From a virus, in IMG/VR virus record IMGVR_UViG_3300007734_000988, positions 1-36,345 of that record: a DNA stretch of 36,345 nt; one strand, written 5' to 3'. The notes beneath the pieces are model-generated. The model was given only the letters and a program-made list of their open reading frames with translations. It ran no database searches and had not been told where the DNA came from. Both the position numbers and the translations under genes were made by a program. This document shows, piece by piece, positions 5,742-25,532 of the stretch. The number at the start of each line of letters is the position of its first letter. Positions within the stretch are counted from its first letter, which is position 1.

Positions 5742-7748
5742 TCAGTCCTTGCGGAGGGTGCCGCCGGTAAGTTCCTCGTTACGGCGGATCTCGTCCATGA
5801 TGATCGCGATCAACCGCGCGTCCTTCTCGGCCATGGCGCGGGCCAGCCGCTCAAAGGCGGTGGCGACGGGATCAGGGCCGGAGACGGCGGGCGCGGTGGG
5901 CACGCCCGCGACGCCGCGCACGCCGGGCGCGCCGATGGGTTCGTTTCCGAAGGCGAAGTCGCCACCGGCCTTGATGACGGCCGCCTGGGTGGAGGCTTCA
6001 CGCGTTCGGTCTGTGACCGCCTTTACGGCCGCGCTGCGCTCGCGGCGGTTCACCTCGCCGCGCACGATGTCACCGTGGGCGGGCAGGTTGGCTTCGTTGG
6101 CTTTTTGGATCGCGGCGAGCCGGGCAGCTTCATCCGCCTGCGTGGCCTCGGCGGCGGCGAGCGGCTGGCCATCCACCAGGCCCTTGCCGGCGGCGGCGGC
6201 CTTGCTTTCGTTCCGCGTCTTCTGGTCGCGGAGAAGTTTTTGCTGGGTCTCGGCCAGCTCGGTGCGGAGCTCGTAGGCCCGGCTGCCGACGAGCGCCTGT
6301 CCGCGATCTGATGTAACGGATGCCTGAATTTTTTTGATGGCGGCCTTGTCCTCATCTACCATCCGCTGCATGGCGGCGGCGGGTTCGACCAGTTCCTTTT
6401 GTTCCTTTCGGGCCTGGGCGATTTTCGGGGCGCGCTCATTGACGCTTTCTGCGAGGTCTCCCTCCTGGCCGAGGGCGAAGTTGATGGCGTCCTGCGCAGC
6501 TTTTTGTTTGGCCTCCGACAGCGCATCCGCCTGGCGGTGCAGCTCGTCGGCGATCTCTTTTTGGAGCGTCGCCTTGCGCTCGAGGTAAGCAATTTCATCG
6601 TCGGGATTTTGCGCTTTCCAGATTTCCAGCTCGGCCAGGGCAAGGGCGTTTTCGGCGGTGGCAAGGGCGGCGACGTGGGCGGCGGCGTCATCGAGGTCGG
6701 TGACGAGCTTTTGCAGGTTGGTGCTGGAGGCGGCGGCGGCAGTGCCGATGCCGGTGAGCACGGCGTCCAGCTTCGCCTTTTGACCGGCGAGTTCCTCGCC
6801 ACTCTCCTTGGTTTTTGTCAACGCGTTGGCCATGCCGTCGAGTTTCTTGGTGGTGCCGCCGGTGACTTCCGCCCACCAGGCGAAAGTGCGGGCGAGGCCG
6901 CCGACGACGCCACCCGTCTCCTGGCCGTCGTTGATGAAGCGGCCGATGTTTTCGAGGACGTTGCCGAGCTGGAGTTTCATCTGCGCCCAGTGGCCGTTCA
7001 AACTTTGGGCGCGGGCCTCGAGCTGGCCGCCGCCGCGCTGGGCGAGGTCCTCCATGAGGGTGGCCATCTTCTCAGTCTGGGTGCCGGCCTCGCTCACCAC
7101 GATGCCGTAGCGGGAGAACATGGTGAAGTTTCCCTGCATGGCTTTGCTCACGGCGGCGGCGGCGCTCTCGACGTCACCGCCCATGATGCCGGCGAGATTC
7201 TTCACCGCCTCGGTGTATTGTTCGATCTGGTCCGGGTTCGCACCGAATTGCGTGAGGCGGGTGAGGACGTCGAGCCATTTTTCACCGGAGATGGCGGTCT
7301 TGGTTTCCAGTTCGTCAGCGAGGGCGGCGTATTTTTCGCGCGTGGCATCGGTCAGGAGCTGGTTTTGGGCGAGGGCGGCGTCGAGTTTGAAAACACTCTC
7401 CTGGTTGGCGGCGAATTCCTCGCGGGCCTTGGCCATGACGCCGATCAGCGCGGAAAAGCCGGCGACGGCCGCGCCGACGGGCGTGGCCAGGGCGGAGAGG
7501 ACAGATCCAACACCGGGAATGCTGGAGGCGGCGTCCTTGAGGCCGCCGAAAAAGCCGCCGCCGGCGGGGCCGGTGGAGTTTTTCATGCGCGCCTGGAGCG
7601 CGGCGAGTTTGGCCTCGGCCTCCTTGGAGGAATCGCCCAGGGCCTTGAGCTTGCCGATCTCGCGCTGGAGGGCGTCCTCGGCGGCTTTCGCGCCGGCCAG
7701 TTCGGCCTTGGTTTTGAAGACGAGTTCCTGGACGAGGGGGGCGCTCAT
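5742..7748 (-). CDS. Tail tape measure protein
   Basis: 668 residues. Features of a tape measure are an N-terminal helical/coiled segment (KAELAGAKAAEDALQREI), a Gly/Ala-rich hydrophobic stretch at about residues 75-110 (GVGSVLSALATPVGAAVAGF), the conserved tape-measure region with ETKTAISGEKWLDVL and AMQGNFTMFSRYGI, and a long Ala/Glu/Lys coiled-coil C-terminal half. It sets tail length and occupies the tube lumen. If helical throughout, 668 residues would give a tail of roughly 100 nm. The start at 7748 overlaps the stop of the upstream small membrane protein by four bases. Coding capacity upstream of 7748 in the same frame is a shadow of that small gene. Confidence 0.87.
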   Translation of the reverse strand: MSAPLVQELVFKTKAELAGAKAAEDALQREIGKLKALGDSSKEAEAKLAALQARMKNSTGPAGGGFFGGLKDAASSIPGVGSVLSALATPVGAAVAGFSALIGVMAKAREEFAANQESVFKLDAALAQNQLLTDATREKYAALADELETKTAISGEKWLDVLTRLTQFGANPDQIEQYTEAVKNLAGIMGGDVESAAAAVSKAMQGNFTMFSRYGIVVSEAGTQTEKMATLMEDLAQRGGGQLEARAQSLNGHWAQMKLQLGNVLENIGRFINDGQETGGVVGGLARTFAWWAEVTGGTTKKLDGMANALTKTKESGEELAGQKAKLDAVLTGIGTAAAASSTNLQKLVTDLDDAAAHVAALATAENALALAELEIWKAQNPDDEIAYLERKATLQKEIADELHRQADALSEAKQKAAQDAINFALGQEGDLAESVNERAPKIAQARKEQKELVEPAAAMQRMVDEDKAAIKKIQASVTSDRGQALVGSRAYELRTELAETQQKLLRDQKTRNESKAAAAGKGLVDGQPLAAAEATQADEAARLAAIQKANEANLPAHGDIVRGEVNRRERSAAVKAVTDRTREASTQAAVIKAGGDFAFGNEPIGAPGVRGVAGVPTAPAVSGPDPVATAFERLARAMAEKDARLIAIIMDEIRRNEELTGGTLRKD

Positions 7749-7933
7749 GGGTGAGGGGGAACGCGGGCGAACGGTTTTGCGAGGCGCTCCATTTCGCGCA
7801 GGCGGCGGCAGCGGCGATCGCGGACGTGGCCGGTGATGACCGAGGCCACGGCCAGCGCCACGGGCGCGGCGAGGTAAACGATGAAGAGCGTGCCGGCGAT
7901 GGCGGCGAGGGCGGTGAGAACGAAAGGGTTCAT
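7745..7933 (-). CDS. Small membrane protein upstream of tape measure
   Basis: 62 residues with one long hydrophobic span (residues about 4-35, FVLTALAAIAGTLFIVYLAA) followed by a basic, Arg-rich tail (HVRDRRCRRLREMERLAK). The topology predicts a single-pass or hairpin inner-membrane protein with a cytoplasmic positive end. No family was recognised. It is translationally coupled to the tape measure gene. With the lipoprotein just upstream (8009-8224), it could form a membrane-linked pair, for example in lysis or superinfection control; this is inference from position and topology. Confidence 0.6.
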   Translation of the reverse strand: MNPFVLTALAAIAGTLFIVYLAAPVALAVASVITGHVRDRRCRRLREMERLAKPFARVPPHP

Positions 7934-7943
7934 GTTTGTTTCC

Positions 7944-7990
7944 CCCCCCGGCCCTCTCTCCCACAGTCGCGGGAAGAGGGAGGAGAGCGC
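7944..7990. repeat. Divergent copy of the CCGGCCCTCTCCC hairpin repeat
   Basis: The gap between the small membrane protein and the lipoprotein holds a degraded relative of the repeat seen at 11939, 15814, 18131 and 27426. CCCGGCCCTCTC is retained, with a longer loop before GAAGAGGGAGGAGAG. It forms an imperfect hairpin. Confidence 0.6.
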
Positions 7991-8008: not shown

Positions 8009-8224
8009 TTATTGGCCCACGGAGATCCCGCCATCAGCGGAAACTTTGTGTGCGGCGGTGTTGGTGGTCGGCGAGGTGCGGCTGATCTCCACCGTGCCGT
8101 AGATGGTGGTGATGCGCATGTGGGCGGTGGCCGGGTCCTTGGCAAGGGCGCGAATGAGGGATGAGTTGACGCAGCCGGAGGCGGCGAGGGCGAGAAGGGC
8201 GCAGAGGATGAAGGTTTTTTTCAT
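8009..8224 (-). CDS. Small lipoprotein
   Basis: 71 residues. A classic lipoprotein signal (MKKTFILCALLALAASGC) places the lipidated Cys at residue 18, leaving a mature chain of 54 residues. It has no transmembrane segment beyond the signal and no family I recognise. It lies between the fibre and the membrane protein preceding the tape measure. A lipoprotein within a tail operon could be an outer-membrane spanin subunit, a receptor-masking exclusion protein, or cargo. Position and size do not decide among these. Confidence 0.7.
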   Translation of the reverse strand: MKKTFILCALLALAASGCVNSSLIRALAKDPATAHMRITTIYGTVEISRTSPTTNTAAHKVSADGGISVGQ

Positions 8225-8258
8225 GGTGTTTTTTTTGGTTGGGGGTTGAGGGTTTCGA

Positions 8259-10634
8259 TCACGGCCGCGCGTAGATGATCAGCCGCCAGTTGGCGGTGTT
8301 GGTAAAGGTGGTGGTGCTGAGCGAGCCGGTCTTGTCCACCCACTCCACGGAAGACGCTGGTGCATTGTTGACGCTGACGCCGACGTTGGTGGAGTTGGCC
8401 CACACGGTGCCCCACGGACGGCTCACTCCGGTGTACCAGATCGCGGTTATCGGCACTTCGTCACCGGCCGTCCAGCCGCGCTCAGCCACGACGTTCCGCA
8501 GCACGGCGCGGACGACGGTGGGAGTGACGGGGAGTCCGTGCGCCATCTGGATCAAGGTCGAGAATCCGCAGGTGATGTTGGTCGAAACGAATTCGCGGAG
8601 GGCGATGGAGATGTTGGCGGCGGCGAGCGTGGCCGTGAAGTTGGTTTTGAAGTCGAGCGTGTAGCCGTTGGTCAGCGCTCCGGCGAAGGTGCTGTTGGTG
8701 GTGATGACGGTGTTCGTCTGAGAACTGCTGGCGTTGAAAACCACGCTGGTGCCGGTTGAGTAGATGACCATGTTGGTGCCCTGCTCGATGCCCCGGAACT
8801 CCGCGACGTGCAGGTTGGTCGGGCCGCTGGCGACGATGCCGCGAAAGAGCGGCTGAATCGTCGCGTTGGAAACGGCCACGTTGTAAATGTTCGTGATCGA
8901 GTTGGTCAGGTAGGTGTTGTTGAGGTCGGCCAACGTCACGTAAAGATTTGTGTTCCCCACGCCCGAGCCGCCGATGACGGTCCAGCGCGAATTGAGATAT
9001 TTCAATTTCACGGTCAGGTTGGTGCCGACGGGGAAATCGGCGGTCGTCATGTTGGCGATGCGCGTGTCGGAGGCGGACGTGAACCCGGATTCGTTGGCGA
9101 GGGTCATGGTGTAGCCGGACTGGTTGTGCAGGGTGATGACGCGATCCGTCCAGCGGTTGGTGATGGCGTCCAGATACCAGTTGGCTGACGGGCCGGAGAG
9201 GACGAAGTAGCTGGCCGAGTCCGAAATGGACATGATGTTATGACCGTTGGCGAGGCTGGTGATGGCGGTCGAGGTTTCAGTCCATGAGCTGGTGTTCGTC
9301 GAGTAGCCTTTGAACAGGGCGTTGCTGGAGACCGGCCCCATGATCGGCCCGGCGAAGGTGAAATAATTTGATGTATTCCCAAAAGCGAAATGATTGGCGG
9401 CCAGCGCGTCAACGTAGCTTCCGAAGACCGCACTGTTGACGTAAGAGGCGGTCGAGCGGCTCCCGACCGCAATCGAATTCACGCCCGTCGCGTACAGTTC
9501 CTCGACGCCCACCGCAACGGAATAGTTTCCTTCCGCGCCGACGCCGTACCCAACGCCGAGACTCGGTGATCCATACGACGTGACCGAGTTGCCAAGAGCG
9601 ATGCTTCCAGTGTTCGTTGCCACCGCATACCAGCCGATGCCCACGCTCTGTGCGCCGTTTGCTATGGAAAGTGCGCCGAGCTGCAAACTTTGATTGCCCA
9701 ATCCAGGGCTGTCGAAATTCGTCACCGTCAGGGAATGGATGACCACGTTGCTCATGTTGCCGCTGACGTTGGTGAGGACGGTGCCGCGAATGGTTCCGTT
9801 GGTGACGCTGCCGATGGTGCCGGAGATTTCACGCGCACCCTGAATCACGGCGTTGACGTTCGTGCTCATGCGCTCGGTGACGTTGGTGAGCGTGCCGGTG
9901 ACGAGGGCGATGTTGCTGCCGGAGATGGATGGGGCGTTGGTGATGGCGGAGTTGGTGAGGCCGCCGCCGGTGATGGCGGGGGCTTGGAAAATGGTGTTGG
10001 TGAAAATGTTGGTGGTGGGGACGGTGGTGAGGGCGTGGAGGAGGGCGGTCGCGCCGGCGGGGATGCGGTTGGTGCTGATTCCGAGGGCGGAGGCGAGCAG
10101 GGAAAAAATGTTGGTCTGCGCGCCGAGATTGGTGTTGTAGGTGTAGGGGACTATGACGGGGAAGGAGCTGGCCACGGTGCTGGTGGAGTAGGTGACATTG
10201 CCCCAGCCGGTGCCGCCGAAGGTGATGGTGAGGTTGGTGCTGACCGGGGCCTGGAAGGTGAGGGTGTTGGTGGTGCTGCCGTAGTTCACGACGAGCGGGC
10301 CGGTGAAGGGGTAGGCTTGGATCTGGAGGTAGAGGTTGGTGCGCGACCAGCCGATGGAGTTGGTGGCGGAGATCTGGGTGGCGGAGTTGGTGAGGTTGGT
10401 GGTCCAGGTGCGGGTGTCGCTGTTGACGACGAGCGTGTTGGTGTTCACCGGGGTGTTGGTGATGGTGAGGGTGGCGGTGATGCGGGTGGCGGCGGACGCG
10501 GAGAAGGCGAGAAGGAAAAAAAGGAGCGTAGCGCAGAGTTGCACTCTGCTGTGTCGCCGAATTGCATTCGGCAGGGCGGCGAAGCGGTGCGGCAGATTAA
10601 AAATCTGCGCTACGGGCGAGGTGAGATGTTTCAT
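8259..10634 (-). CDS. Exported tail fibre/adhesin with YadA-like head repeats
   Basis: 791 residues, very rich in Thr, Asn and Ser. The N-terminus has a signal-peptide-like core (LLFFLLAFSASAAT, ending near residue 49), although the gene lies in the tail operon. Residues about 315-420 contain SIALGNS, SVAVGVE, SIAVGSRS and similar 14-residue units typical of the trimeric beta-roll head of YadA-type autotransporters. Many phage fibres borrow this fold. The rest is beta-rich, consistent with a trimeric fibre shaft and C-terminal tip. Residues 8-36 are encoded by an inserted repeat element (10527-10614) lying between the start codon and the hydrophobic core. The stop codon is followed after 34 bases by the lipoprotein. 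Role: probably the receptor-binding fibre, or a surface adhesin made by the lysogen. Confidence 0.75.
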   Translation of the reverse strand: MKHLTSPVAQIFNLPHRFAALPNAIRRHSRVQLCATLLFFLLAFSASAATRITATLTITNTPVNTNTLVVNSDTRTWTTNLTNSATQISATNSIGWSRTNLYLQIQAYPFTGPLVVNYGSTTNTLTFQAPVSTNLTITFGGTGWGNVTYSTSTVASSFPVIVPYTYNTNLGAQTNIFSLLASALGISTNRIPAGATALLHALTTVPTTNIFTNTIFQAPAITGGGLTNSAITNAPSISGSNIALVTGTLTNVTERMSTNVNAVIQGAREISGTIGSVTNGTIRGTVLTNVSGNMSNVVIHSLTVTNFDSPGLGNQSLQLGALSIANGAQSVGIGWYAVATNTGSIALGNSVTSYGSPSLGVGYGVGAEGNYSVAVGVEELYATGVNSIAVGSRSTASYVNSAVFGSYVDALAANHFAFGNTSNYFTFAGPIMGPVSSNALFKGYSTNTSSWTETSTAITSLANGHNIMSISDSASYFVLSGPSANWYLDAITNRWTDRVITLHNQSGYTMTLANESGFTSASDTRIANMTTADFPVGTNLTVKLKYLNSRWTVIGGSGVGNTNLYVTLADLNNTYLTNSITNIYNVAVSNATIQPLFRGIVASGPTNLHVAEFRGIEQGTNMVIYSTGTSVVFNASSSQTNTVITTNSTFAGALTNGYTLDFKTNFTATLAAANISIALREFVSTNITCGFSTLIQMAHGLPVTPTVVRAVLRNVVAERGWTAGDEVPITAIWYTGVSRPWGTVWANSTNVGVSVNNAPASSVEWVDKTGSLSTTTFTNTANWRLIIYARP
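10527..10614. repeat. MITE-like element of three hairpins inside the fibre gene
   Basis: Perfect 11-bp terminal inverted repeats CGTAGCGCAGA (10527-10537) and TCTGCGCTACG (10604-10614) enclose three hairpins: CAGAGTTGCACTCTG (10534-10548), GCCGAATTGCATTCGGC (10556-10572) and GCAGATTAAAAATCTGC (10592-10608). It has no coding capacity of its own, but it is read as residues 8-36 of the fibre. It resembles repeat clusters I associate with Verrucomicrobia. Confidence 0.85.
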
Positions 10635-10637
10635 TGG

Positions 10638-11267
10638 TTAGTTGGTGTTCACGCCGGGGGTGCCGTCATCGGCGATGGTCTGCTCGAAGGTGTGGCCGTT
10701 GTTCTGGCTCTGTAAAATCAGGGTGGCTCCGGCGGGGTTGAGGCCGTATTTCACGCAGCCGGCGATCTTCGCGTTCATCACTTCCTCCCACGTCGGGATG
10801 GCCGGGGCCACGGCCACGGTGTTGTCGATGCCGGCATCGCGGATGGTAAAGGTGGAGGTGCCGTAAACGACACGGCCGTCAGTGGTGTAGCCCCAGACGG
10901 TGAGATCGTAATCGCCAGGCGTGAGGGCGGTCTCGGCGTAGGTGAAGGAAACATAGACGTGCTGGCCGGTGCCGGCGTTCCATTCGGCCACGGTCACCGC
11001 GTCATTGATCTCGGCGGCGGTGAGAGATTTCAACATCAGCGGGGCGCTGGCCGGGCTGTCCTTGGCCTTGACCTGGACGAAGACCTGGGTGGCGTTCGTC
11101 ATGTCGTACGGCTCGGCGGGATTCTTGTCGTCCATCATCAAAAACCGGAAGGCCATGTCGGTGGCTTTCCAGCCGGCGGGGTTCTGGTTGGTGGAGGCGA
11201 CAAAAGGTTTCCGCACGTCCTTGGGGGTGAGGATGCAGCTGATGACGGTTTCGGTGAATTGGCTCAT
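10638..11267 (-). CDS. Baseplate/fibre-attachment protein (BppU-like N-terminus)
   Basis: 209 residues. The first 130 residues form a beta-sandwich-like region (FRFLMMDDKNPAEPYDMTNA, then VFVQVKAKDS and YDLTVWGYTTDGRVV) resembling the N-terminal domain of baseplate upper proteins that anchor fibres to siphophage tips. The remaining part is probably a short linker. It directly precedes the fibre gene, in line with a connector role. Its start overlaps the stop of the upstream tail gene by four bases. The family call rests on sequence pattern only; the tail-tip location is better supported. Confidence 0.6.
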   Translation of the reverse strand: MSQFTETVISCILTPKDVRKPFVASTNQNPAGWKATDMAFRFLMMDDKNPAEPYDMTNATQVFVQVKAKDSPASAPLMLKSLTAAEINDAVTVAEWNAGTGQHVYVSFTYAETALTPGDYDLTVWGYTTDGRVVYGTSTFTIRDAGIDNTVAVAPAIPTWEEVMNAKIAGCVKYGLNPAGATLILQSQNNGHTFEQTIADDGTPGVNTN

Positions 11268-11704
11268 GGCGTGGGGACGGCGCTGGGTTGACCGACGGCG
11301 AAGGAATAGACGACGGAGAGGGAGGCATCGCCGCTGGGCTTGGCTTCAAAGCCGGCCAGCACGGCGTTGGGGTAGATGATCACGCCGCCGGCACCGCCAA
11401 TGATGCCGGTCTCCAGGGTGCCGATGTCCGCGATTTTCAGGGGGATTTCCTCGGCGAAGAGGAACGCCTCCTCCGCCGTGGCAAAATCAATCTCCGTTGT
11501 AAAAGTTTTGACGGCGGAGAGGCCGCCGAGGGAGAGGTGGGTGGAGAAAGTCACCTCCAGCCCGGCGCTGGTCTGGAGGTTGCGGGTCCACGGGGCAGTG
11601 TAGTCCATCAGCCACGGGACGCGGTAGCCGCGATCCACGCCGCTGGCGATGATCCAGGGAAGATCGGCGGCTCGAAGGCCGGTGAATTTAGCGTAGCGGG
11701 CCAC
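11264..11704 (-). CDS. Tail structural protein, unknown
   Basis: 146 residues, no membrane segment, mixed alpha/beta composition. I do not recognise the family. It lies between the tail tube region and the fibre-attachment protein and is coupled to the latter by a four-base overlap. A tail completion, tip or chaperone-linked role is inferred from position. The C-terminus is short and Pro-rich (QPSAVPTP). Confidence 0.55.
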   Translation of the reverse strand: MARYAKFTGLRAADLPWIIASGVDRGYRVPWLMDYTAPWTRNLQTSAGLEVTFSTHLSLGGLSAVKTFTTEIDFATAEEAFLFAEEIPLKIADIGTLETGIIGGAGGVIIYPNAVLAGFEAKPSGDASLSVVYSFAVGQPSAVPTP

Positions 11705-11716
11705 GGCGGTTGGGAG

Positions 11717-11920
11717 TTATTGCGGCGGGGCGGGCGCGGCTTTGCCGCCGGGGGGCAGCGGGGCGGCGGCGGGCGCGGCGCGGAGGGCGTCGCCCTCGCT
11801 CAACATGCGGACGACGTCGTCGAGCATGAGGGCGGCGTTGAGTTCCACGCCGGTGGTTTTTTTCCGGGTGCGAAGTTCGAGGGCTTGCTTTGCGATTTGT
11901 TCGATCAGTTTTTCATTCAT
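11717..11920 (-). CDS. Small helical protein downstream of tail tube, possible tail chaperone
   Basis: 67 residues: an N-terminal helical part (KLIEQIAKQALELRTRKKTT) and a Pro/Ala-rich tail. It sits just after the tail tube gene, where siphophages usually encode tail assembly chaperones, but it is shorter than typical chaperones and I see no frameshift partner. A chaperone role is a guess from position. Confidence 0.45.
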   Translation of the reverse strand: MNEKLIEQIAKQALELRTRKKTTGVELNAALMLDDVVRMLSEGDALRAAPAAAPLPPGGKAAPAPPQ

Positions 11921-11938
11921 GGTGGTTTCAGGTTGCCC

Positions 11939-11975
11939 ACCCTCACCCCGGCCCTCTCCCCCAGGAGAGGGAGAA
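11939..11975. repeat. CCCTCACCCCGG hairpin repeat, copy 1 (intergenic)
   Basis: The element reads CCCTCACCCCGGCC and then a hairpin of CCCTCTCC and GGAGAGGG with loop CCCA. It fills most of the gap between the tail tube gene and the small downstream gene. Near-identical copies occur at 15814, 18131 and 27426. Confidence 0.88.
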
Positions 11976-11995
11976 GCCGGGGCGGGCGGAGGGGT

Positions 11996-12997
11996 TTAGT
12001 AGGTGCCGGGGGCGACGAGGGTGGACATGGCGGCCTGGGCACCGGTGCTGAACGGGCGGGAGGCATACCAGCCGTATTCGCCCTGCCGCAGGACTTCATC
12101 ACCGAAGCGGAAGCCGGCGCTGACCAGCGAGGCGAGCGGGATGGTGAGGGTGGTGGTGGTGTCGGTGCCGGTGATGACCAGCGGCCAGGAGACGTGACTT
12201 TGCGCGCGGCCGGAGATCTGCGACGCGGCCGAGACACCGATGGCGGTGAGGAGCTGCGCGGGCGTCGGTCCCACGGGGACACACTTGGCCATGACCTCGA
12301 TGCCCTGGTAGGTGATCTTGCGGATGGTGCCCTGCACGGCGTGCATCTTGACCTTGAGGTTCGCGCTGATCGTCCACTTTGTTTCCGCCTCGAAGCTGGC
12401 AAAACCAGTGGGGCAGACGAGGGATGAGACGGGGTTGGTGCCGGACCAGGCGGCGGTGTAGGCCTGTTGTTTGGCCTGGGTGCTGGTGAGGGTGGTGTCC
12501 ACCACGGTGGTGTTCCCGCCGATGGTGTAGAGGGAGCTCGCGGCGGTGGGCGCGAGGCCGGTGCCGATGACGCCCGAGATTTCCATCGCGCCGAAGAGCG
12601 AGTCGTCCACGCCGAGATGGAGGTCGGGCAGCTTGGTGATGGCGCTGGCGATGATGGTGCCGCCGCCGTTGCCGCTGGAGTCGTGGAAGAGCGTGGGCAC
12701 GTCCGCGGCGGTGGTGAGGTCGAAGCCCATCGCGAGATTCATGTAGTCATTCCAGAGGAGCGCGGCGAGGTCGGCATTGACGTGGCCGCTGGGCGTGAAG
12801 CCGGCCTTCACGTGGGCGCCGAAAAAGGTTTTGTCGAACTCGCCGTGGAATGATGAAGTCTTCGGCTTGTACTCGGTGGCGATCTCCAGGGACACGTCGT
12901 CCTTGGTGAAGATGGAGCAGGAGGCGGCGGCGGTGTTGGCTTTGACGATGCGGCACGGCCCCACAAAGAGGGCGGCGCGGGTGGGATTGAGGGGCAT
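11996..12997 (-). CDS. Major tail tube protein
   Basis: 333 residues, Ala/Thr/Gly-rich, beta-rich, without signal or membrane segments. It lies after the connector, neck and terminator genes and before the chaperone-like gene and tape measure, the normal place for the tail tube protein of a long non-contractile tail. No sheath gene accompanies it. Sequence patterns such as EIATEYKPKTSSF and GFTPSGHVNADLAALLW are typical of tube proteins that handle the N-terminal arm and beta-sandwich, but I cannot name a precise family. ATG at 12997 is supported by a complete N-terminus right after the upstream gene's 3' spacer. Confidence 0.68.
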   Translation of the reverse strand: MPLNPTRAALFVGPCRIVKANTAAASCSIFTKDDVSLEIATEYKPKTSSFHGEFDKTFFGAHVKAGFTPSGHVNADLAALLWNDYMNLAMGFDLTTAADVPTLFHDSSGNGGGTIIASAITKLPDLHLGVDDSLFGAMEISGVIGTGLAPTAASSLYTIGGNTTVVDTTLTSTQAKQQAYTAAWSGTNPVSSLVCPTGFASFEAETKWTISANLKVKMHAVQGTIRKITYQGIEVMAKCVPVGPTPAQLLTAIGVSAASQISGRAQSHVSWPLVITGTDTTTTLTIPLASLVSAGFRFGDEVLRQGEYGWYASRPFSTGAQAAMSTLVAPGTY

Positions 12998-13019
12998 ATT
13001 TTATTCTTGGGTTGGGGGT

Positions 13020-13760
13020 TTAGGTGTAGAGGGAAAGCTGGGTGTCGCTCGGAAAACTGCCGGAGAGAAAGGCGCGGGCGCGGAGAATTTTCGGACCGCT
13101 CGTGAGGGCCACGGGCGAGGTGTAAAGGACGGCGGCGGCGTTCCCGCTCCAGGGCGGTGATCCGTCCAGCGTGTAGTAGACGCTCGATCCGACGGGCGCG
13201 GTGATGGTGACGGTCTGCGGGGTGACACCGCTCGAGGGCGAGAAGGTGGGGAGCGGCTGGACTTTGGCGATGGCCTCGCCGTCGTCTTCGAGGCAGACAA
13301 AATTGCACTGGTAGCCGATGAGGTTGGCCTCTTTCAAATTCAGCGGCGTGAGAAACTGCTCGTCGCAGCGGAAGGCTTTGGTGAGGCCGCGCAGGCAGTG
13401 GCCTTTAAGCACGTCCCGAATGCGTCGGGCAATGGTGCGCGCGGATTTGCCGGTGCCGGTGGGGCCGTTGTTGAGTTCAACGATCTCATAGACCTGGACG
13501 GCGGGCTGGAGTTCCAGCGGGCCGTAGCTGCCGCCGAGGTTGGGATCGCGGGCCTCGAGCTGGGGGATGACGACGGAGACGCCGCGCTTGCCGCCCTTGG
13601 CCGCGAGCACGGCCTGCTTGCGCTCGATCTCGAGGGCGACGTTGCCGCGCTCGGCGACGACGACGGTGATGTCCGTAAAGTAGGAATCGGATTCGAGGAT
13701 GGCCTCGATCTCGTAGGGGAGAAGATCGATGACGTCGATCGCGTTGATGGTGGTGCTCAC
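13020..13760 (-). CDS. Tail terminator/minor tail protein with C-terminal chitobiase-like domain
   Basis: 246 residues. The first 165 fit a tail terminator/completion protein by position, following the HK97 gp10-like gene. The last 75 (TPQTVTITAPVGSSVYYTLDG, then LYTSP and LRARAF) match the small beta-sandwich found at the C-terminus of chitobiases and many phage and secreted proteins, which acts as an adhesive or carbohydrate-contacting add-on. A decorating domain on this protein would lie on the outside of the tail. The start overlaps the upstream stop by four bases. The domain call for the C-terminus is firmer than the terminator call. Confidence 0.66.
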   Translation of the reverse strand: MSTTINAIDVIDLLPYEIEAILESDSYFTDITVVVAERGNVALEIERKQAVLAAKGGKRGVSVVIPQLEARDPNLGGSYGPLELQPAVQVYEIVELNNGPTGTGKSARTIARRIRDVLKGHCLRGLTKAFRCDEQFLTPLNLKEANLIGYQCNFVCLEDDGEAIAKVQPLPTFSPSSGVTPQTVTITAPVGSSVYYTLDGSPPWSGNAAAVLYTSPVALTSGPKILRARAFLSGSFPSDTQLSLYT

Positions 13761-14314
13761 TTTCCACCTCCGGCGGGGTAGGCGGACATGGCGGCGAAGA
13801 TGGCGCTGGCGTAGAGCGGGGTGCGGGCGGTGAGGCCGTCGCGCACGAAGTGGCGGCCGGTGATGGAGACGTGGCGGGTGTGGGCGCGCACCTGGCCGCG
13901 CGCGCGTTCCCCGGCGGTTTTGAGGCGTCCGTCGGCATGGCGGAGATTTCCTTTGCCGGCCAGCAGGCGGGTGTGGGCCTTGACCTGCACGTCGCCCTCG
14001 AATCCTTCCTCCTGCATCGCGGCGTAGCTCACGTTCGAGCCGATGCTGGAGACCAGGCTGTCACCCATGATGGTGGTGCGGCCGGCGCGGAGGGAGCCGC
14101 GCAGGCGGCCGGTGATGATGCGGCAGCCGATGGCGACGGTCGGGCCTTTGCGCGGGAAGTTGAGGCGCTCCTTTTGGATGACCGAGACGGTGAGCAGGTT
14201 CTCCTGGTCCATGGCGCGCGCGCCGGCGCGAACGAGGCCGACGGAATCCTGGGCGCGGGCCAGCAGGGGCTGGGTGCGGGGATCGACGGTGATGTACACT
14301 TCGTGAGTGGTCAT
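13757..14314 (-). CDS. HK97 gp10-like neck/tail completion protein
   Basis: 185 residues, basic. The central part (SNVSYAAMQEEGFEGDVQVKAHTR, split by a Gly loop) has the NxSYAxxxExG pattern of HK97 gp10-like and virion morphogenesis proteins that join head and tail. Position between the connector and the terminator agrees. Four-base overlaps at both ends show tight coupling within the head-tail joining cassette. Confidence 0.72.
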   Translation of the reverse strand: MTTHEVYITVDPRTQPLLARAQDSVGLVRAGARAMDQENLLTVSVIQKERLNFPRKGPTVAIGCRIITGRLRGSLRAGRTTIMGDSLVSSIGSNVSYAAMQEEGFEGDVQVKAHTRLLAGKGNLRHADGRLKTAGERARGQVRAHTRHVSITGRHFVRDGLTARTPLYASAIFAAMSAYPAGGGK

Positions 14315-14958
14315 ACCAGTTGCATGTGGACGTACTGGGTGAGGGTGCGTTTCACGTCGGGGAGGAATTCGAGCCCGGCGAGGCTGCCGGCCACGGTGGC
14401 GGCGGCGCTGCCAGTGGTGGTGATGTCCGCGCCGAGTTTATCCTTGACCTGCCAGGCGAGGGTGCATTGCTGAAGCCAGGCAAGTTTCAAATCTTCCGGC
14501 AGGGCGGTGGCGCCGGAGGGGAGGGCGGTGGGGTAGCCGCTGTCGGCGGGTTCGAGAATGTTCCAGAAATATCCGCCGGTGTAGGTGAATTTTATTTGCG
14601 CGGAAAAGGTTCCGGCGTCCCCGGTGGTGAGATAGACCACGCCGCTCGCGGGGTGGAAGGTGCGGATGAAATCGTTGACGGTCTGGGCGACGAAGCCAAG
14701 GGCCTCGGTCTGCTTGAGGGCGATGGCGGAGATGGATTCGACCGGGGTGCGGGCGAGGATGAACTGGGAATAGTCGGCCGGGAAGATTTCGACGGCGGAG
14801 GCGGTGCGGAGAAAACAGCGGTTGCAGAATTTCTCAAACTGGGCGGCGACGCCGAGGCCGATGTTTGCGAGGACGGTGTCGAACTCGGTGCCGGCGACGA
14901 GCGAGGGCGCGAGCAGGTGGCTCTTGAGGCTGTGGAGATTGGCGAGGCCGGCGTTCAT
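14311..14958 (-). CDS. Head-tail connector protein (gp6-like)
   Basis: 215 residues. The N-terminal helices with RTPVESISAIALKQ and a region around FCNRCFLRTASAV fit head-tail connector proteins of the gp6/HK97-type family, which form a ring under the portal. The order capsid, accessory, connector, neck protein is canonical. The start codon lies at the very edge of a hairpin-rich repeat element (14961-15066), so its ribosome binding region is made of repeat DNA. Confidence 0.68.
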   Translation of the reverse strand: MNAGLANLHSLKSHLLAPSLVAGTEFDTVLANIGLGVAAQFEKFCNRCFLRTASAVEIFPADYSQFILARTPVESISAIALKQTEALGFVAQTVNDFIRTFHPASGVVYLTTGDAGTFSAQIKFTYTGGYFWNILEPADSGYPTALPSGATALPEDLKLAWLQQCTLAWQVKDKLGADITTTGSAAATVAGSLAGLEFLPDVKRTLTQYVHMQLV

Positions 14959-15149
14959 TTGGAGTGCGGTGACTTGGCACCGCTTTTTGTTCCCGGCGAG
15001 TTCTCGCCGTTCGGGCGGCGCGACGAGTCGCGCGGGCAGGAAGGCGACGACGAGTCGCCGCGCTCCAGGGCCGCCGCAGGGCGGACGAAGGGGCGCGTGA
15101 GGGCATCACGGGTCTTCATCATCCGGTCCTGCGGCGGGTGTTGGTCCAT
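14955..15149 (-). CDS. Questionable 64-residue reading frame through a repeat element
   Basis: The first 20 residues (MDQHPPQDRMMKTRDALTRP) start 26 bases after the exported protein gene and could belong to a real small gene. The rest is encoded by the hairpin cluster at 14961-15066 and is Ser/Pro/Arg-rich without protein-like character. It may be a small gene truncated by the insertion, or not a gene at all. Confidence 0.25.
   Translation of the reverse strand: MDQHPPQDRMMKTRDALTRPFVRPAAALERGDSSSPSCPRDSSRRPNGENSPGTKSGAKSPHSK
14961..15066. repeat. MITE-like element of four hairpins
   Basis: Imperfect 13-bp terminal inverted repeats (GGAGTGCGGTGAC at 14961-14973; GTCGCCGCGCTCC at 15054-15066; two mismatches) flank a chain of hairpins: GCGGTG/CACCGC, GGCGAGTTCTCGCC (14995-15008), CGCGACGAGTCGCG (15019-15032) and GGCGAC/GTCGCC (15043-15059). 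It lies between the exported protein and the connector gene. Confidence 0.82.
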
Positions 15150-15175
15150 GGTTTTGCGTTTCGGGTTTGGAGTTG

Positions 15176-15769
15176 TTACTCGTAGCGGGCGACGGCGGAG
15201 TTGATTTTATTGGTGGACAACGCGGGGCTGATGATGACGCGCACGGGCCGGCCGACGGCACCGACGAAGAGCGCCTCGCCATTGGCCGCGTTGGTGGTCG
15301 CGCCAATCGGCACGGTCACCGCGGTGTCGAGCTGGTAGAGGCGATCGCCGACCGAGCTGAGAACGCCGAAGGCGCCGGATCCGAAGACGGCGTTGGTGGC
15401 GTTGTTCGTGGCAACGAGCAGCGCGTAGTAGCCGATGCCCGAGTGTTCGAGGATGAACCCGGTGTTGGTCACCATCCCCACCACGCTGTTCACGTATTGC
15501 GTGAGGTAGGTGGAGGAGGGGTTGGTGGCGGTGATGGAGTAGGCGCCCAGGCCGGTGGTGTAGCTGGCGGTGGCGGTGTTGCTGTCCGAGTTCCAATTCA
15601 GATTCACCAGGCGAATCTGCTGTTGGGAGACGGACGGGAAGATCACAGAGGCGCCAGTGGTGGCGTTTCCGTTTCCTGATTTGGTGACGTAGGCGGGCGA
15701 GGCGGCGGGCAGGCTGACGGCCAGCAGCAGCGCGGCGGAGAGGACAATGATTTTTTTGATGGTCTTCAT
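15176..15769 (-). CDS. Exported beta-rich protein in the head-decoration slot
   Basis: 197 residues. The N-terminus is a Sec signal peptide (MKTIKKIIVLSAALLLAVSL, cleavage after about PAASPA). The mature part is rich in Thr, Asn, Ser and Gly and probably beta-structured. The gene lies between the major capsid and the head-tail connector, where siphophages usually encode a decoration or head-fibre protein. It resembles the exported fibre gene in composition (TNNATN, TNAANG). A signal peptide on a virion-operon protein is unusual. It may be a periplasm- or surface-directed cargo protein, or a structural protein with a signal-like N-terminus. No family was recognised. Confidence 0.65.
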   Translation of the reverse strand: MKTIKKIIVLSAALLLAVSLPAASPAYVTKSGNGNATTGASVIFPSVSQQQIRLVNLNWNSDSNTATASYTTGLGAYSITATNPSSTYLTQYVNSVVGMVTNTGFILEHSGIGYYALLVATNNATNAVFGSGAFGVLSSVGDRLYQLDTAVTVPIGATTNAANGEALFVGAVGRPVRVIISPALSTNKINSAVARYE

Positions 15770-15813
15770 TTTTTGTTGTGAGTTGTGGGGGTTGTTGGTT
15801 GAGAGTTTTTCCG

Positions 15814-15850
15814 CCCTCACCCCGGCCCTCTCCCCCAGGAGAGGGAGAGG
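15814..15850. repeat. CCCTCACCCCGG hairpin repeat, copy 2 (intergenic)
   Basis: Same element as at 11939, located between the capsid gene and the exported protein gene, next to a degenerate heptamer stretch (15776-15810). The stem-loop could slow polymerase or protect the 3' end of capsid mRNA; that is inference. Confidence 0.88.
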
Positions 15851-15872
15851 ACCAGGATGCGGCGGACACGGA

Positions 15873-17303
15873 TCAGCTGGCGGCGGTCTTGACCACGGCC
15901 ACGGCGTCGGTGGCCATGTAGTCGAAGTCAAACTCGGCGATCATCCGGGTGGTGATCAGGTCGTTGATAAAAGCGAAGTCCGAAGACTCGTCGATGCGCA
16001 GGCCGCCGTTGCGCGAACCCATCCACCAGTAGGAGAGATCCCCATACACGGCGAGGATGGCGCCGGGGTTGGCGTTGTCCTCGTCGTAAGCGGCGAGCAC
16101 TTCCGTCCAGACGATGGGGCGTCCGAAGAGCAGGGCCTGGCCGGCGTTGTTGTAGCGGAAGTTGTATTGATTCGCCTGGGTGTTCAGCTCGGGCAGGTAG
16201 GCTTCCCACGTGTTGTTGATATACCAGACGCCGGTGGAGCGGACGCGGCTGTTCACCTTGCCGAAGATGGCGCGGAGGTTGGCCACGGTCACGTCGCTGG
16301 TCTTGGTCTTGCCAGAGCCGAGCGTGACGAGCTTGGAGTTGGTCGTGGCGACTTTGCCGACGCCGGCGATGCTGTCGTAGGAGCCGGTGCCATCCGCGAG
16401 GAAAGCGTATTCGTCCTCGACTTGTGCTGCGGCGACGGCGGCCAGGCGGGCGATGTACTGGCCGAGGGCGATGATGCTCTGCTCGCGCAGTTCGCGGGGC
16501 GTGTAGATGAAGCCGGCGAGCTTGTGCGATTCAAGCGAAGCGAACTCGACGGTGAGGCCCTTCTCCGTGATGGCGGCCGCCATGGCGGTGCCGGAGAGCG
16601 TGAAGCGCGTGAGGAAGCGCGGCGGCTTGTCGGTTCCGCCGGAGAGCGGCCACATGGTGAACGCGTTGCGGGCGACGCCGTATTCTGCGATGAGCGCGTT
16701 GATTTCGGAGAAGAACTGCGAGGGCAGCGGAACGTCCGAGGCGCTCAGGGTTTTTTCCACCGACATGCCGAACACCCCGCGCGTCTCGTTGAGGAGCGCA
16801 GTGCGGAGGGAGGGATCAGCCAGGCAGAGGTCGAGCTTGTTGCAGCGCGCCAGGTGCAGGACGAATTGCGCGCCGAGCTGCTCGGCAGCCTTCTGCGACA
16901 ACATGCCGCGCGGGCGAACCTCCTGGGTGGCGGACATGCGAGATTTGAGCATCTTCGCGACCTGCCCGCGCAGCTCGTCGTTCTTTTTCTGCTCATCCTT
17001 GAACAGGGCCGGCAGGGATTTCAGCCAGGCCCAGCCGCCTTCGGTCTCGGAGAGGGTCTTCATGCCAGGGATGAAGTCCTTGAGCGGCGCAAGCTCCTTG
17101 CAGACGTCCCCGAACTCCTTGATTTGCTCGGGGGTGAGCACGGAGTTGTAAAGGTGGAAGGACCGTTTGCTCATGGCGAACTGGCTGAGTTGCCAGAGGG
17201 CGATGAGGGTGAAGCAGATTTCGAGCGGCACGCCGAGCAAGGCGAGCGAGAGAGATGCCGCGGCGACGAGGCCGAGGGCGATCAGATGTTTGTATTTGTT
17301 CAT
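15873..17303 (-). CDS. HK97-type major capsid protein with hydrophobic N-terminal extension
   Basis: 476 residues. Residues about 50-130 are helical and charged (LTPEQIKEFGDVCKEL, DEQKKNDELRGQVAKML), as expected for the scaffolding delta domain that the S78 protease removes. Residues about 170-476 look like the HK97 fold, with AVARLAAVAAAQVEDEYAFL-like helix and a C-terminal TRMIAEFDFDY strand. Residues 1-43 are odd: two adjacent hydrophobic spans (HLIALGLVAAASLSLALLG and LEICFTLIALWQLS) not found in ordinary capsids. An internal ATG at 17174 (MSKRSFHL) would give a normal 433-residue capsid. Either that is the true start, or a small two-span membrane protein is fused to the scaffold and removed on maturation. 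Upstream are heptamer repeats and the protease gene. Confidence 0.85.
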   Translation of the reverse strand: MNKYKHLIALGLVAAASLSLALLGVPLEICFTLIALWQLSQFAMSKRSFHLYNSVLTPEQIKEFGDVCKELAPLKDFIPGMKTLSETEGGWAWLKSLPALFKDEQKKNDELRGQVAKMLKSRMSATQEVRPRGMLSQKAAEQLGAQFVLHLARCNKLDLCLADPSLRTALLNETRGVFGMSVEKTLSASDVPLPSQFFSEINALIAEYGVARNAFTMWPLSGGTDKPPRFLTRFTLSGTAMAAAITEKGLTVEFASLESHKLAGFIYTPRELREQSIIALGQYIARLAAVAAAQVEDEYAFLADGTGSYDSIAGVGKVATTNSKLVTLGSGKTKTSDVTVANLRAIFGKVNSRVRSTGVWYINNTWEAYLPELNTQANQYNFRYNNAGQALLFGRPIVWTEVLAAYDEDNANPGAILAVYGDLSYWWMGSRNGGLRIDESSDFAFINDLITTRMIAEFDFDYMATDAVAVVKTAAS

Positions 17304-17347: not shown

Positions 17348-18037
17348 TTAGCGTCTCAGGATGCCTCGGAGTTCGCGGGCGAGGTTCAGCAGGTGCCCAT
17401 CATGGAGGCCCGCGCCGGATGGGCTGACCGGAGGCGCGGGTTCTGTCGCACTGCAAAAGTTTTTCAGGAGGTCGGCCACGGCGGCGAGATCACCCCTGGC
17501 GACGAAGCCCTGCTTGAGGGCGAGGCCGAGGGTGGCGCCGGGATTCGCGGGCACCACCACCATGCTGATCTCCAGCAGTTCGGCCTTGGTGTAGGTGCGG
17601 GCGGGGTCGTCCTTCGTTTTTCCGTTGGTCCATTCGAGCGGGATGAAGCCGACGCTCTGGGATTTGATGAAGCCGCCGGCGGCCATCTTGAAGGCGAGGT
17701 TGCCCAGGGGATTTTCCACGCAAAATTCCACGTCGTTGACGAGCTGGCCGTCCTTGTTCACCTCGATGTGCGCGGCGCGGCCAAGAATTTTCACGATGCT
17801 GGAGTAATCGTGACAGTCCGGGATGACGGGGTTGCGCTTGAAGTTCGTGAGGTTCCAACCTTTTTGATCGATGACCTCGTGGTAGCGGTCCACGGAGCCA
17901 TCGCTGCCGATGAAGCGCAGGGTGTTTTGTTTCGCGTCCACGTTCTTCACTTCGATGGTGAGACCGCCGCGCAGGCCGGCGTCGCCGGTGTGGAGGGCGA
18001 TGAGGCGGTTTCCAAATTCTTCGGAGAGTGGTTTCAT
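17348..18037 (-). CDS. HK97-family prohead protease (peptidase S78)
   Basis: 229 residues. Serine protease that processes the capsid scaffold during head maturation. The visible catalytic pattern is His76 in VIPDCHDYSS and Ser128 in IKSQSVGFIP, followed by the family's LLEISMVVVPANPGA strand. The position between portal and capsid is standard. The ATG overlaps the portal-MuF stop by four bases. After residue 190 the chain is Pro/Gly-rich and probably an unstructured tail. Confidence 0.9.
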   Translation of the reverse strand: MKPLSEEFGNRLIALHTGDAGLRGGLTIEVKNVDAKQNTLRFIGSDGSVDRYHEVIDQKGWNLTNFKRNPVIPDCHDYSSIVKILGRAAHIEVNKDGQLVNDVEFCVENPLGNLAFKMAAGGFIKSQSVGFIPLEWTNGKTKDDPARTYTKAELLEISMVVVPANPGATLGLALKQGFVARGDLAAVADLLKNFCSATEPAPPVSPSGAGLHDGHLLNLARELRGILRR

Positions 18038-20454
18038 GGGTTTTGCGTTTCGGGTTTCGGGTTCGGGAAGGACATGAGGCCGAGGCCGCAGATTTCAAAG
18101 GTGCGGAGGCTGTGATTGTTTTTGCGACCACCCTCACCCCGGCCCTCTCCCCCAGGAGAGGAAGAGGATTTTTCCTTGGGCGCGCGGGCGGCCAGCTGGA
18201 TGCACTGGCAGTTGATGATATTCGCGGCGGTGGCACCGAGGGAGTCGTCGCCGGGGAACATCAGCTCCTCGCCGCCGACGGTGAAGGGCTCGTCGAGGGG
18301 GATGGGGTTCTCCAGGGAGTAGGCGACTTCCGCGAGCTCGTGCGAGTAGCGCGCGTGGGGGCCGTGGGAACTGAGCCAGGCTTTGTATTCGATGCCGGCA
18401 TCGGCCATCGCGTCCTGGCGGGCGTCGTTGTAGGCGAGGTTGACCTCGGTGCGGGCGACGCGGGTGGCCTCGAATTTGGAGAGGTCGTTGAAGGCGGATT
18501 TAATCCGGTCCGCCAGCTCGCTCATGGTCTCGCCGGATTCGAGTCCGGACTGGAGCGCGGTGTTGATCTTGGAGCGGACGGTCTGGCCGCTGCCCATGAT
18601 CTCCTGGGTCCGGCTGTTGAAGTAGTCGATGGCTTTTTGGTTCGGCATTTTCCACGGGTCATCGAGGCCGATCTCTTTGCGGAGTTCGTTGCCGGCGGCT
18701 TGCAGGGTGTCGGTGATGGGGCGGCGAAGTTCGCCGGCGAGGTCGGTGCCGTAGGCGTGGGGGTCGAAGATGAGGTCGATCAGTGCGCGTTGTTGAGAGT
18801 TGGGGAGTTGAGGGTTGAGAGTTTTGAGATCGGAGGTCGAGAGTTTGGCAAGGACGCGGGCGCGGTGGGCGTTGAGGACTTTGGAGACTTTCGACTCGAA
18901 AGTTTTGACGGCGGACCGGCGGGCGGTGATGTGGGAGCGCCAGAGGCGGGCGAGGTCAGGGGCGCGGAGTTCCAAGTTGGGAGTTTCGGGTTTCGGGTTG
19001 GCCGCGGCGGACGCGAGCAGCTGTTGCATCCGAGTGATCGGGTCTACTTGCGCTTTCCCGCTTTCCCGCCTTCCGCTTTTGCCTTCCGCCGGGTCGCCGC
19101 TGTCTTCCGGCGGGAGGGGCGCGGCGTCGCCGCCGGCCTCCTGCAGGTTGAAGGGGAGGAATGATTTGTTCCCCCATGTCGGGTAATCGGGGAAACCGAG
19201 GTCGTAAACATGGTTGAGGTCGTTGAAGGTGACGCCGATGCCGAAGGCTTTCACGCCGGCGTCGAGCCGGGCGCGGCGGGCCTCCTGCATTTCCGGAAGG
19301 CTCTCGATGTCAAACCAACCGATCAGTCCGGGGCCGAAAGATTTGACGATGGGTTCGAGCGCGGCTTCGAGATTTTCGCAGAGCGGGGCGATGGTGTTGA
19401 CGACCCAGCCGATGGCCTCCTGGTTGATGGCGCTGCCGCCGCCGGAGAGGGCCGAGGCTTTCGCGTCGGATAAGCCCATGATGGAGTCCGGCACTTTGAA
19501 GATCGCGCCGATCTCCTGGCGGTTCATTTTTCGATTCTCGATGAAGGTGGTCTCCATGCCGGAGAGCTGGGGCTTGTCCATTTTCATTCCACCCCAGAGG
19601 AAGAGGGGGCGGTCCGGCGTGCCCGCCTTGCGTTTGCGTTCGCGCAGGGCGGCGTTGGTCTGCTGGATTTGTTCGGGGGTGAACTGTTGGTCGCTGGTGA
19701 CGACCATGCCGGTGTCGGCATTGTTCATCCAGTAACCCTTGTTGTACTGGCTGGCCGCGTAGTCCGCCCCGGCCGCGCCCATCGCGACGAGGAGCGGGGA
19801 CATGCCGCGCCAGTAGGTGTAGGGGTTGGGCCGGCGGCCGTGGATAAGTTCGCTCGGGAGCAGGAACTCCGAGGGGATGGGCGTGAGCAGCGGCGATCCG
19901 GTGTAGCGCCATCCGAGGAGATCGTAGCCAGCCACGTTATGCCAAAAAAGGGCGGTGTCCAGAGTGACGAGGCGGGTGATGCGGGCGGAGCTGGTGGCGA
20001 GATCGACGGGCTGATCGGCGTCGTCCAGGGGGAGGACGAAGAATTCGCCGCGCAAACAATTCCAGGTAACGACCATTTCCCAAAAAAGCTGGCGGCTCAT
20101 GGTGGGATGCGGCCGGTTGAAGAGGTCCACGATGGCCCCGGCCCCGATGATGTTCTCATCCATCGCCCGCCGGCACGCGGCACGGTGGCGTGGCTCAGAT
20201 GAGCGGCGCAGGGCGCGGACTTTTTTGGCGGGGTCATCGCCGAGGGAGGAAATGCGGAAAGGGATGGAGCTGATCTTCTCAGCCAGGCGGGAGACGGCGA
20301 TATAAACCCAGGCGCTTTGGGCGTAGGGGCTGGTGATCTGGGCACCGCCGGCGGAGGAGCCGTCGAGGTCGGCCCCGGTGAGGAAGTCGGCAACGGCGGA
20401 TTTGGCCTTTCCGAAACTGAACTGATGCCCGGCGATGGTGAGGGAGAGGTTCAT
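18034..20454 (-). CDS. Portal protein fused to MuF-type head morphogenesis domain
   Basis: 806 residues in one frame. Residues 1-435 are an HK97-type portal (NYxxW-like SAWVYIAVSRLAEKI, GMSPLLVAMGAAGADYAAS, IFKVPDSIMGL), the DNA gate of the head. Residues about 500-756 are a MuF/SPP1 gp7-type minor head protein (FEATRVARTEVNLAYNDAR, ANIINCQCIQLA). Mu and SPP1 carry these as two genes, so this is a fusion. The linker and tail are built from repeat DNA: GKSGRRESGKA (458-468), NPKPETPNLELR (486-497), LKTLNPQLPNSQQR (543-556), SSSPGGEGRGEGG (764-776) and NPKPETQNP (798-806). The ATG follows a repeat-filled gap. The fusion would tie each of the 12 portal subunits to one MuF subunit. Confidence 0.88.
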   Translation of the reverse strand: MNLSLTIAGHQFSFGKAKSAVADFLTGADLDGSSAGGAQITSPYAQSAWVYIAVSRLAEKISSIPFRISSLGDDPAKKVRALRRSSEPRHRAACRRAMDENIIGAGAIVDLFNRPHPTMSRQLFWEMVVTWNCLRGEFFVLPLDDADQPVDLATSSARITRLVTLDTALFWHNVAGYDLLGWRYTGSPLLTPIPSEFLLPSELIHGRRPNPYTYWRGMSPLLVAMGAAGADYAASQYNKGYWMNNADTGMVVTSDQQFTPEQIQQTNAALRERKRKAGTPDRPLFLWGGMKMDKPQLSGMETTFIENRKMNRQEIGAIFKVPDSIMGLSDAKASALSGGGSAINQEAIGWVVNTIAPLCENLEAALEPIVKSFGPGLIGWFDIESLPEMQEARRARLDAGVKAFGIGVTFNDLNHVYDLGFPDYPTWGNKSFLPFNLQEAGGDAAPLPPEDSGDPAEGKSGRRESGKAQVDPITRMQQLLASAAANPKPETPNLELRAPDLARLWRSHITARRSAVKTFESKVSKVLNAHRARVLAKLSTSDLKTLNPQLPNSQQRALIDLIFDPHAYGTDLAGELRRPITDTLQAAGNELRKEIGLDDPWKMPNQKAIDYFNSRTQEIMGSGQTVRSKINTALQSGLESGETMSELADRIKSAFNDLSKFEATRVARTEVNLAYNDARQDAMADAGIEYKAWLSSHGPHARYSHELAEVAYSLENPIPLDEPFTVGGEELMFPGDDSLGATAANIINCQCIQLAARAPKEKSSSSPGGEGRGEGGRKNNHSLRTFEICGLGLMSFPNPKPETQNP
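18131..18167. repeat. CCCTCACCCCGG hairpin repeat, copy 3 (in portal-MuF gene)
   Basis: The same hairpin element as at 11939 and 15814, here within the coding region. It is read as SSSPGGEGRGEGG directly after the MuF domain, showing insertion into or near the 3' end of an essential gene without breaking the frame. Confidence 0.88.
18785..19090. repeat. Three heptamer/octamer arrays in the portal-MuF linker
   Basis: CTCTCAA-type units at about 18787-18830, AACCCGA-type units at about 18970-19000, and CGCTTTCC units at about 19050-19076 are all in frame within the portal-MuF gene. Together they make much of the linker between the two domains. Confidence 0.78.
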
Positions 20455-22885: not shown

Positions 22886-23134
22886 TCACATCTCCAGTCG
22901 GGCCGCCTCGCCGGCGGAGCTGATGCTCCAGAGGACGCCCTTGAACTGCGTCTGCACACCATGCACGGCACGGGCCGCGTCCAGCAGGCGGAGGGTTTCA
23001 TCAAATTCCGCCGAGGTGCAGGCGGGCAGGCCGCCGATGTCCGCGTGCAGTGTGAGGGCGTGCATCTGGCCGCCGGCCAGCGCGTGCAGGGCGTTCAGGA
23101 TTTTCTTGGCAATCTGGGTTTCGCGGGCGGTCAT
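22886..23134 (-). CDS. Small protein of the lysis-packaging junction
   Basis: 82 residues, soluble. A compact helical N-terminus (ETQIAKKILNALHAL) is followed by a region resembling a winged-helix tail (ADIGGLP, FDETLRLLDAARAV, GVLWSISSAGEAAR). It is coupled to the membrane coiled-coil gene by a four-base overlap and precedes the small terminase by four bases. Mu-like phages carry a short conserved protein in this slot. A DNA-binding role is possible but not shown. Confidence 0.6.
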   Translation of the reverse strand: MTARETQIAKKILNALHALAGGQMHALTLHADIGGLPACTSAEFDETLRLLDAARAVHGVQTQFKGVLWSISSAGEAARLEM

Positions 23135-23505
23135 AATTTTCTCCGGTTGATCTCCAGCTCGCGGTTGATGGCGGAGAGTGTTTCGCGGACGAAGGTGAAC
23201 TGCTCATTGATCTCGTGGTCCGTGCGCGAGAGGCGGTCGTGAATGGCGGCGGCGCGGTGCTCGCCGGCGGTGAGGATGTCTTGCTTGTCCTCCTCCAGCT
23301 TGGCCATCAGGCCATCGCGCCAGTCCTCGAGATGTTTCACGCGGCGGGTGATGTCGTGGACGTTCTGGCCGAGGATGGGGTTGGCGGGCACGGGCGGTTC
23401 GCCGCTGGCGTTGCGCTTGAGTTTGAAGGCGCCATTGACCAGCATGACGACAAAGGCGAGGCAGGCCAGCCAGGCGGCGAAGTTGATGGAGACGAGGTCG
23501 TTCAT
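23131..23505 (-). CDS. Membrane-anchored coiled-coil protein (DUF2730-like)
   Basis: 124 residues: one transmembrane span at about 9-28 (FAAWLACLAFVVMLVNGAF), then a charged helical coiled-coil (RVKHLEDWRDGLMAKLEEDK to RETLSAINRELEINRRKL). Mu-like phages have a protein of this architecture between the holin region and the terminase, in some cases named DUF2730. It may act as an inner-membrane spanin-like component. It is coupled to the upstream secreted protein gene by a four-base overlap. Confidence 0.7.
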   Translation of the reverse strand: MNDLVSINFAAWLACLAFVVMLVNGAFKLKRNASGEPPVPANPILGQNVHDITRRVKHLEDWRDGLMAKLEEDKQDILTAGEHRAAAIHDRLSRTDHEINEQFTFVRETLSAINRELEINRRKL

Positions 23506-25529: not shown

Positions 25530-25532
25530 TGG

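Follow-up and report, generated by a model that had tools for sequence, protein, structure and literature searches.

The window considered here is the whole of a 36,345-base IMG/VR virus record, with nearly every gene on the minus strand. Judged by its gene content, it is a Mu/B3-like transposable tailed phage: MuA-type and MuB-type proteins match PHROG 310 and 296, Gam is recognised (PF07352), the portal is matched by portal PHROGs, and the large terminase is 42–44% identical to those of Pseudomonas phage B3, Sinorhizobium phage Aussie, Microcystis phage Mwe-Yong1 and Leptolyngbya phage Lsp-JY19. Connectors, a tail-tube-like protein, a tape measure, tail-tip proteins and a holin are also present. 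An earlier note had drawn attention to export signals on four of its products: a Thr/Asn-rich fibre, the decoration-slot (deco) protein, a small lipoprotein and a large protein of 675 amino acids (aa) whose gene adjoins that of the holin. All four N-termini were found where it had placed them, and signal prediction called Sec-type signals on each, on the fibre only under a relaxed test. A fifth hydrophobic N-terminus, unlisted in that note, is that of the major capsid protein (MCP), which starts MNKYKHLIALGLVAAASLSLALLGVPLEICFTLIALWQLSQFAMSKR and has the appearance of two hydrophobic helices.

The signal detector was home-made: it looks for a positively charged n-region, a hydrophobic core free of charges and a cut site of A-x-A type, and 2.9% of the N-termini of codon-shuffled genes match it. 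The deco open reading frame (ORF) is open upstream to 15931, and the supported start, ATG 15769, gives MKTIKKIIVLSAALLLAVSLPA^ASPAY, which aligns with four relatives. The fibre starts at ATG 10634, a few bases past the stop codon that precedes it, and its long n-region (~32 residues) leads into RRHSRVQLCATLLFFLLAFSASA^A; because of that n-region the strict test was failed, and the test with relaxed n-region length was passed. The 675-aa protein has a GTG start and the signal VKFSRAFWFPLIALALLTARA^D, and its LamG-like match (PF13385, E 0.005) is below the cutoff. The region in which it lies (22886–28000) contains the holin and no recognised endolysin.

Table 1. Features of the window under discussion, with one entry from phage Aussie; positions are those of the window unless an accession is given.
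Feature	Position	Strand	Remarks
Small lipoprotein, 71 aa	8009–8224	(-)	Signal ~8174–8224: MKKTFILCALLALAASG^C; lipid-modified Cys predicted at residue 18
Thr/Asn-rich fibre, 791 aa	8259–10634	(-)	Predicted signal ~10491–10634 (residues 1–48)
Protein before fibre	10638–11267	(-)	No signal
Deco protein, 197 aa	15176–15769	(-)	Predicted signal 15704–15769; mature part 15179–15703
MCP, HK97 type, 476 aa	15873–17303	(-)	PF05065 E 5e-25, TIGR01554 E 4e-25
Head maturation protease	17348–18037	(-)	PHROG 80 and 617; expected to remove MCP N-terminal region
Portal fused to head-morphogenesis domain	18034–20454	(-)	No signal; internal control
675-aa protein, holin gene adjoining	23502–25529	(-)	Signal ~25467–25529; weak LamG-like region
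Holin (Phage_holin_10, Pam3 gp28 family)	25533–25844	(-)	PF23987 E 5e-10
Signal-like N-termini of phage Aussie	OR786373.1 30701–33496 and 20477–20983		Structural region

Direct scans of viral contigs with the fibre, MCP and deco proteins gave no relatives, but the terminase as query succeeded, with 42 related viral contigs (identity 35–83%). Among genome contigs, a scan found 15 loci, of which 14 are on contigs with the label Verrucomicrobiota or one of its subgroups and one is on a short Pirellulales contig. Since the closest relatives are mostly on Verrucomicrobiota contigs, the lineage is treated here, on the strength of those contigs, as probably one of Verrucomicrobiota phages. Within this family the lipoprotein, the protein encoded before the fibre and the tape-measure proteins of the window have no convincing relatives, and none was found for the 675-aa protein.

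In de-duplicated records, with slot proteins of at least 100 aa and Thr/Asn-rich downstream proteins of at least 250 aa counted, signal-like segments are present on 31 of the 48 proteins expected at the virion surface, that is on 16 of 27 encoded in the slot between MCP and connector and on 15 of 21 Thr/Asn-rich proteins, taken to be fibres, further downstream. None of the 162 internal structural proteins of the same family has one (0/37 portals, 0/31 proteases, 0/29, 0/22 and 0/16 for three connector-type classes, 0/17 tail tubes and 0/10 tail-tip proteins). The difference between the surface and internal classes gives a Fisher p of ~4e-25, which is a guide only, the records being mutually related. 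Set against the shuffled background, these counts argue that the signals are not due to chance. In eight relatives (L042, L047, L050, L054, L057, L058, L061 and L064) an extra N-terminal domain of the slot protein precedes the hydrophobic segment, which is thus internal, lies where the Thr/Asn-rich part begins and ends in A-x-A-type motifs; there the segment is no artefact of the choice of start site. Where the terminase is more distant, the three large Thr/Asn-rich proteins of those records have no signal. The length of the hydrophobic stretch separates the exported proteins (16–27 residues) from the MCPs (24–50 residues), and A-x-A followed by A, Q or T often trails segments of the exported class. 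A count of A-x-A motifs was dropped as an argument for cutting, as it gave no separation (27 of 38 signal peptides, 10 of 18 MCP hairpins). The observation made in the earlier note holds; that the pattern is shared by a lineage and that the capsid protein is involved had escaped it.

The deco gene stands directly behind the coat gene, a position conserved across phages. Five members of the deco family retain the signal, and their mature parts are 24–43% identical to that of the window protein. When 387 Verrucomicrobiota genomes were searched with a profile, one deco homologue, L104, came up, and a further scan found its relatives on 41 contigs. In these P22-coat-type phages (L104–L145), the homologue is encoded directly behind the P22-type coat gene and its N-terminus has no signal, which argues that deco is the head-slot protein of two unrelated head types and that its signal is separable. 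(In L111, L116 and L117, signal-bearing ORFs of 370–1121 aa are directly behind the signal-less homologue.) The mature deco protein is modelled with a mean pLDDT (predicted local distance difference test) of 90.3 as all-beta, a jelly roll with a small inserted barrel. In structure searches, the insert is similar to inserts in the tail-tube and baseplate proteins of phages; it matches the tail tube 9n71 over 72 residues with Z 12.1, and the HFTV1 turret gave Z 7.4. No lambda gpD-type decoration protein was listed in the deco searches, which is not taken as exclusion. The deco-family profile was too divergent for a scan of the phage collection, and a second type of slot protein had no match there.

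YadA-head repeats are present in the window fibre at residues ~310–425 (PF05658, E 1e-7), and it has a match to Hep_Hag of PDB 3s6l. Thr and Asn make up 24% of its residues, and 19–24% across deco and fibre. Membership of the trimeric autotransporter adhesins was considered on account of the head repeats and rejected for lack of an anchor domain, neither a YadA anchor barrel nor a sorting domain being found in Pfam and NCBIfam scans. The signal-bearing fibres encoded in the same region of relatives have pectate-lyase/tail-spike, LamG or GDSL-like domains, and that of L060 has tail-spike PHROG matches. Nine relatives' fibres share one domain immediately after the signal; it is undetectable in the window fibre, and nothing in the phage collection matches it. 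Matches to the window fibre in the 387 Verrucomicrobiota genomes are mostly limited to the YadA-head stretch.

In the window MCP, the hydrophobic hairpin (~17166–17303, residues 1–46) is followed by a delta-like region to residue ~125, with the core from residue ~179. Overall confidence in the MCP model is low (mean pLDDT 60.4); the model was used solely for the two N-terminal helices, which it places, with modest confidence, at residues 5–22 and 27–44. Hydrophobic N-terminal segments are present in 20 of 35 family MCPs. In seven family pairs, the ratio of non-synonymous to synonymous substitution (dN/dS) is 0.21–0.84 for the extension and 0.07–0.26 for the core, so the extension is translated and, in the pairs tested, under purifying selection, though loosely constrained. 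An A/C-rich leader precedes M1 of the MCP, not M44. (Such leaders, with no Shine-Dalgarno-like stretch, are found before several late genes, those for deco, the lipoprotein, the MCP and the tail tube.) The window MCP is a mosaic in which residues 1–120, the hairpin and delta-like part, resemble L046 and L067 and the remainder L016, L031 and L040, so that the hairpin travels with the scaffold (delta) part. The window protease has its closest counterparts in relatives whose MCPs bear the hairpin.

Sec export of the deco and fibre proteins is the best reading of these sequence patterns, because the signal is restricted to surface proteins and is both conserved and separable. Deco and the long fibres would be made with Sec signal peptides, cross the inner membrane and be cut by signal peptidase I. 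The MCP precursor would often be tethered at the same membrane by the N-terminal hairpin of its scaffold (delta) part, which the prohead protease would remove. Heads and tails would be assembled and filled in the cytoplasm, while the exported parts would wait in the periplasm until the holin opened the inner membrane at lysis, and only then attach. For this account as a whole, exported and trimmed surface proteins, an MCP precursor often held at the membrane and joining at lysis, a probability of roughly 0.4 seems appropriate. Export and cutting of deco and fibre are what we infer; that these parts attach at lysis and that the hairpin acts as a tether is conjecture. Binding when the holin opens the inner membrane is the least demanding idea of how exported parts might meet virions, and decoration proteins and fibres of other phages can be added to finished particles in vitro. 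The broader proposition, that a tailed-phage lineage builds its virion from both sides of the inner membrane, with hairpin-held capsid precursors and with deco and fibres added from the periplasm, is doubtful.

Several points weigh against the proposed route. Exported proteins would stay apart from cytoplasmic virions until lysis, and 17 of the 48 surface-class proteins have no called signal. The window fibre has no sequence relatives in the family, so a virion role is assigned to it from its position and composition. The hairpin is patchy among the MCPs (a quick core-domain tree requires 10 changes or more) and so is not essential to the head. The delta region of HK97 is inside the prohead, which is a poor fit with a membrane tether.

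The signal-bearing proteins could be exported without being virion parts, to act on the host envelope (receptor masking, superinfection exclusion, polysaccharide cutting, adhesion) or to be released alongside virions. This is rather unlikely, even though signals and Thr/Asn-rich composition fit secreted proteins, YadA-head repeats are known in adhesins, and domains of the GDSL, pectate-lyase and LamG types would be of use at the envelope too. It sits poorly with a deco family found behind the coat genes of two unrelated head types, with the position of the genes in the late operon, and with fibres that lack an anchor or sorting domain and in L060 match tail-spike PHROGs. The same evidence bears on the choice left by the earlier note, between structural proteins of altered localisation and surface proteins displayed by lysogens or released with virions. 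The former is now favoured by the signal-less deco homologues behind a coat gene and the tail-spike, LamG and GDSL-like domains of relatives' fibres; display or separate release has lost ground, given head repeats with no anchor or sorting domain and genes that lie within the late operon. Less probable still is that the hydrophobic N-termini remain uncut as inner-membrane anchors, signal-anchor or signal-arrest-release (SAR)-like, to be freed on membrane depolarisation. SAR domains are used by phage endolysins (PMC6116005), the slot proteins with a cytosolic domain ahead of the segment resemble N-in, C-out membrane proteins, and the length of the MCP hairpin would let it cross the membrane twice. 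The shortness of the exported-class segments and the A-x-A with A, Q or T that often follows them speak against anchoring, the motif only weakly, as it is also common near the Ala-rich MCP segments.

Export might also serve modification, Thr/Asn-rich surface proteins being glycosylated or folded in the periplasm and later becoming virion or envelope proteins. The Thr and Asn content of deco and fibre would suit this, but it is improbable, as no glycosylation gene was recognised in the window and the richness may merely mirror beta-rich fibres. (A need for disulfide bonds does not account for export, to judge by cysteine counts: deco has none, and the fibre one after residue 48.) Wrong start codons or chance hydrophobic N-termini are a very improbable source of the whole pattern. 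Though the predictor was home-made, the fibre n-region is oddly long and the reading frame of deco continues upstream of the start chosen for it, the null rate is low, the internal proteins are free of signals and the signals align; for the MCP, a dN/dS below 1 in the extension and a leader placed before M1 rather than M44 argue likewise.

Elsewhere in the window, an IS21 istB/istA pair is at the left end of the record (175–2623), and a small lipoprotein-like gene at its right end (35702–36040, plus strand) is possibly host DNA. A head-tail protein (13020–13760) has a chitobiase/Fn3-associated domain at its C-terminus. Repeat-like peptide strings, PHPGPLPLLGERAGVRA and SSPGGEGRGEGG, at ORF ends (15770–15931, 7700–7964 and 18034–18200) look like an intergenic repeat family translated in frame.

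Assembly of tailed phages is generally regarded as entirely cytoplasmic, and Sec signals as confined to lysis and envelope proteins. Searches of open-access papers turned up no account of signals of this kind on head or fibre proteins, and no precedent for the combination found here. If true, lineage-wide signals on head-slot and fibre proteins, beside a matched family elsewhere that lacks them, would mean either a different assembly route or an unsuspected extracellular use of virion proteins; a predicted signal peptide does not rule out a structural role in a phage.

The four B3-like siphophages whose terminases were compared above share the MuA/MuB genes with the window, but their MCPs lack the hydrophobic hairpin, and in B3 signals are called on endolysin and Rz only. 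In Aussie (L093, OR786373.1), which is outside the lineage, two proteins begin in a signal-like manner: a tail protein and one of 168 aa encoded between protease and MCP. The P22-coat-type phages have the same deco family in the same place, but with an unrelated coat and no signal on the homologue. Verrucomicrobia phage P8625, which is lytic, has the host phylum in common and possesses tail fibre and LamG-type proteins; according to its authors none of its proteins has a signal peptide (PMC4642752), and none was found on them here either. Phages of that phylum therefore do not all have the trait. YadA-type trimeric autotransporter adhesins likewise have a signal peptide and head repeats, but the window fibre has no anchor and is encoded in a phage late operon. 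Elements of the proposal have precedents, as some tailed-phage endolysins use the host Sec system (PMC6116005) and T4 builds its heads at the inner membrane (PMC5694885). The Sec-exported or SAR endolysins (fOg44 Lys44, P1 Lyz and phage 21 R) are, however, lysis enzymes, and the T4 prohead begins at the membrane by way of its portal ring, where no hydrophobic capsid-protein N-terminus is involved.

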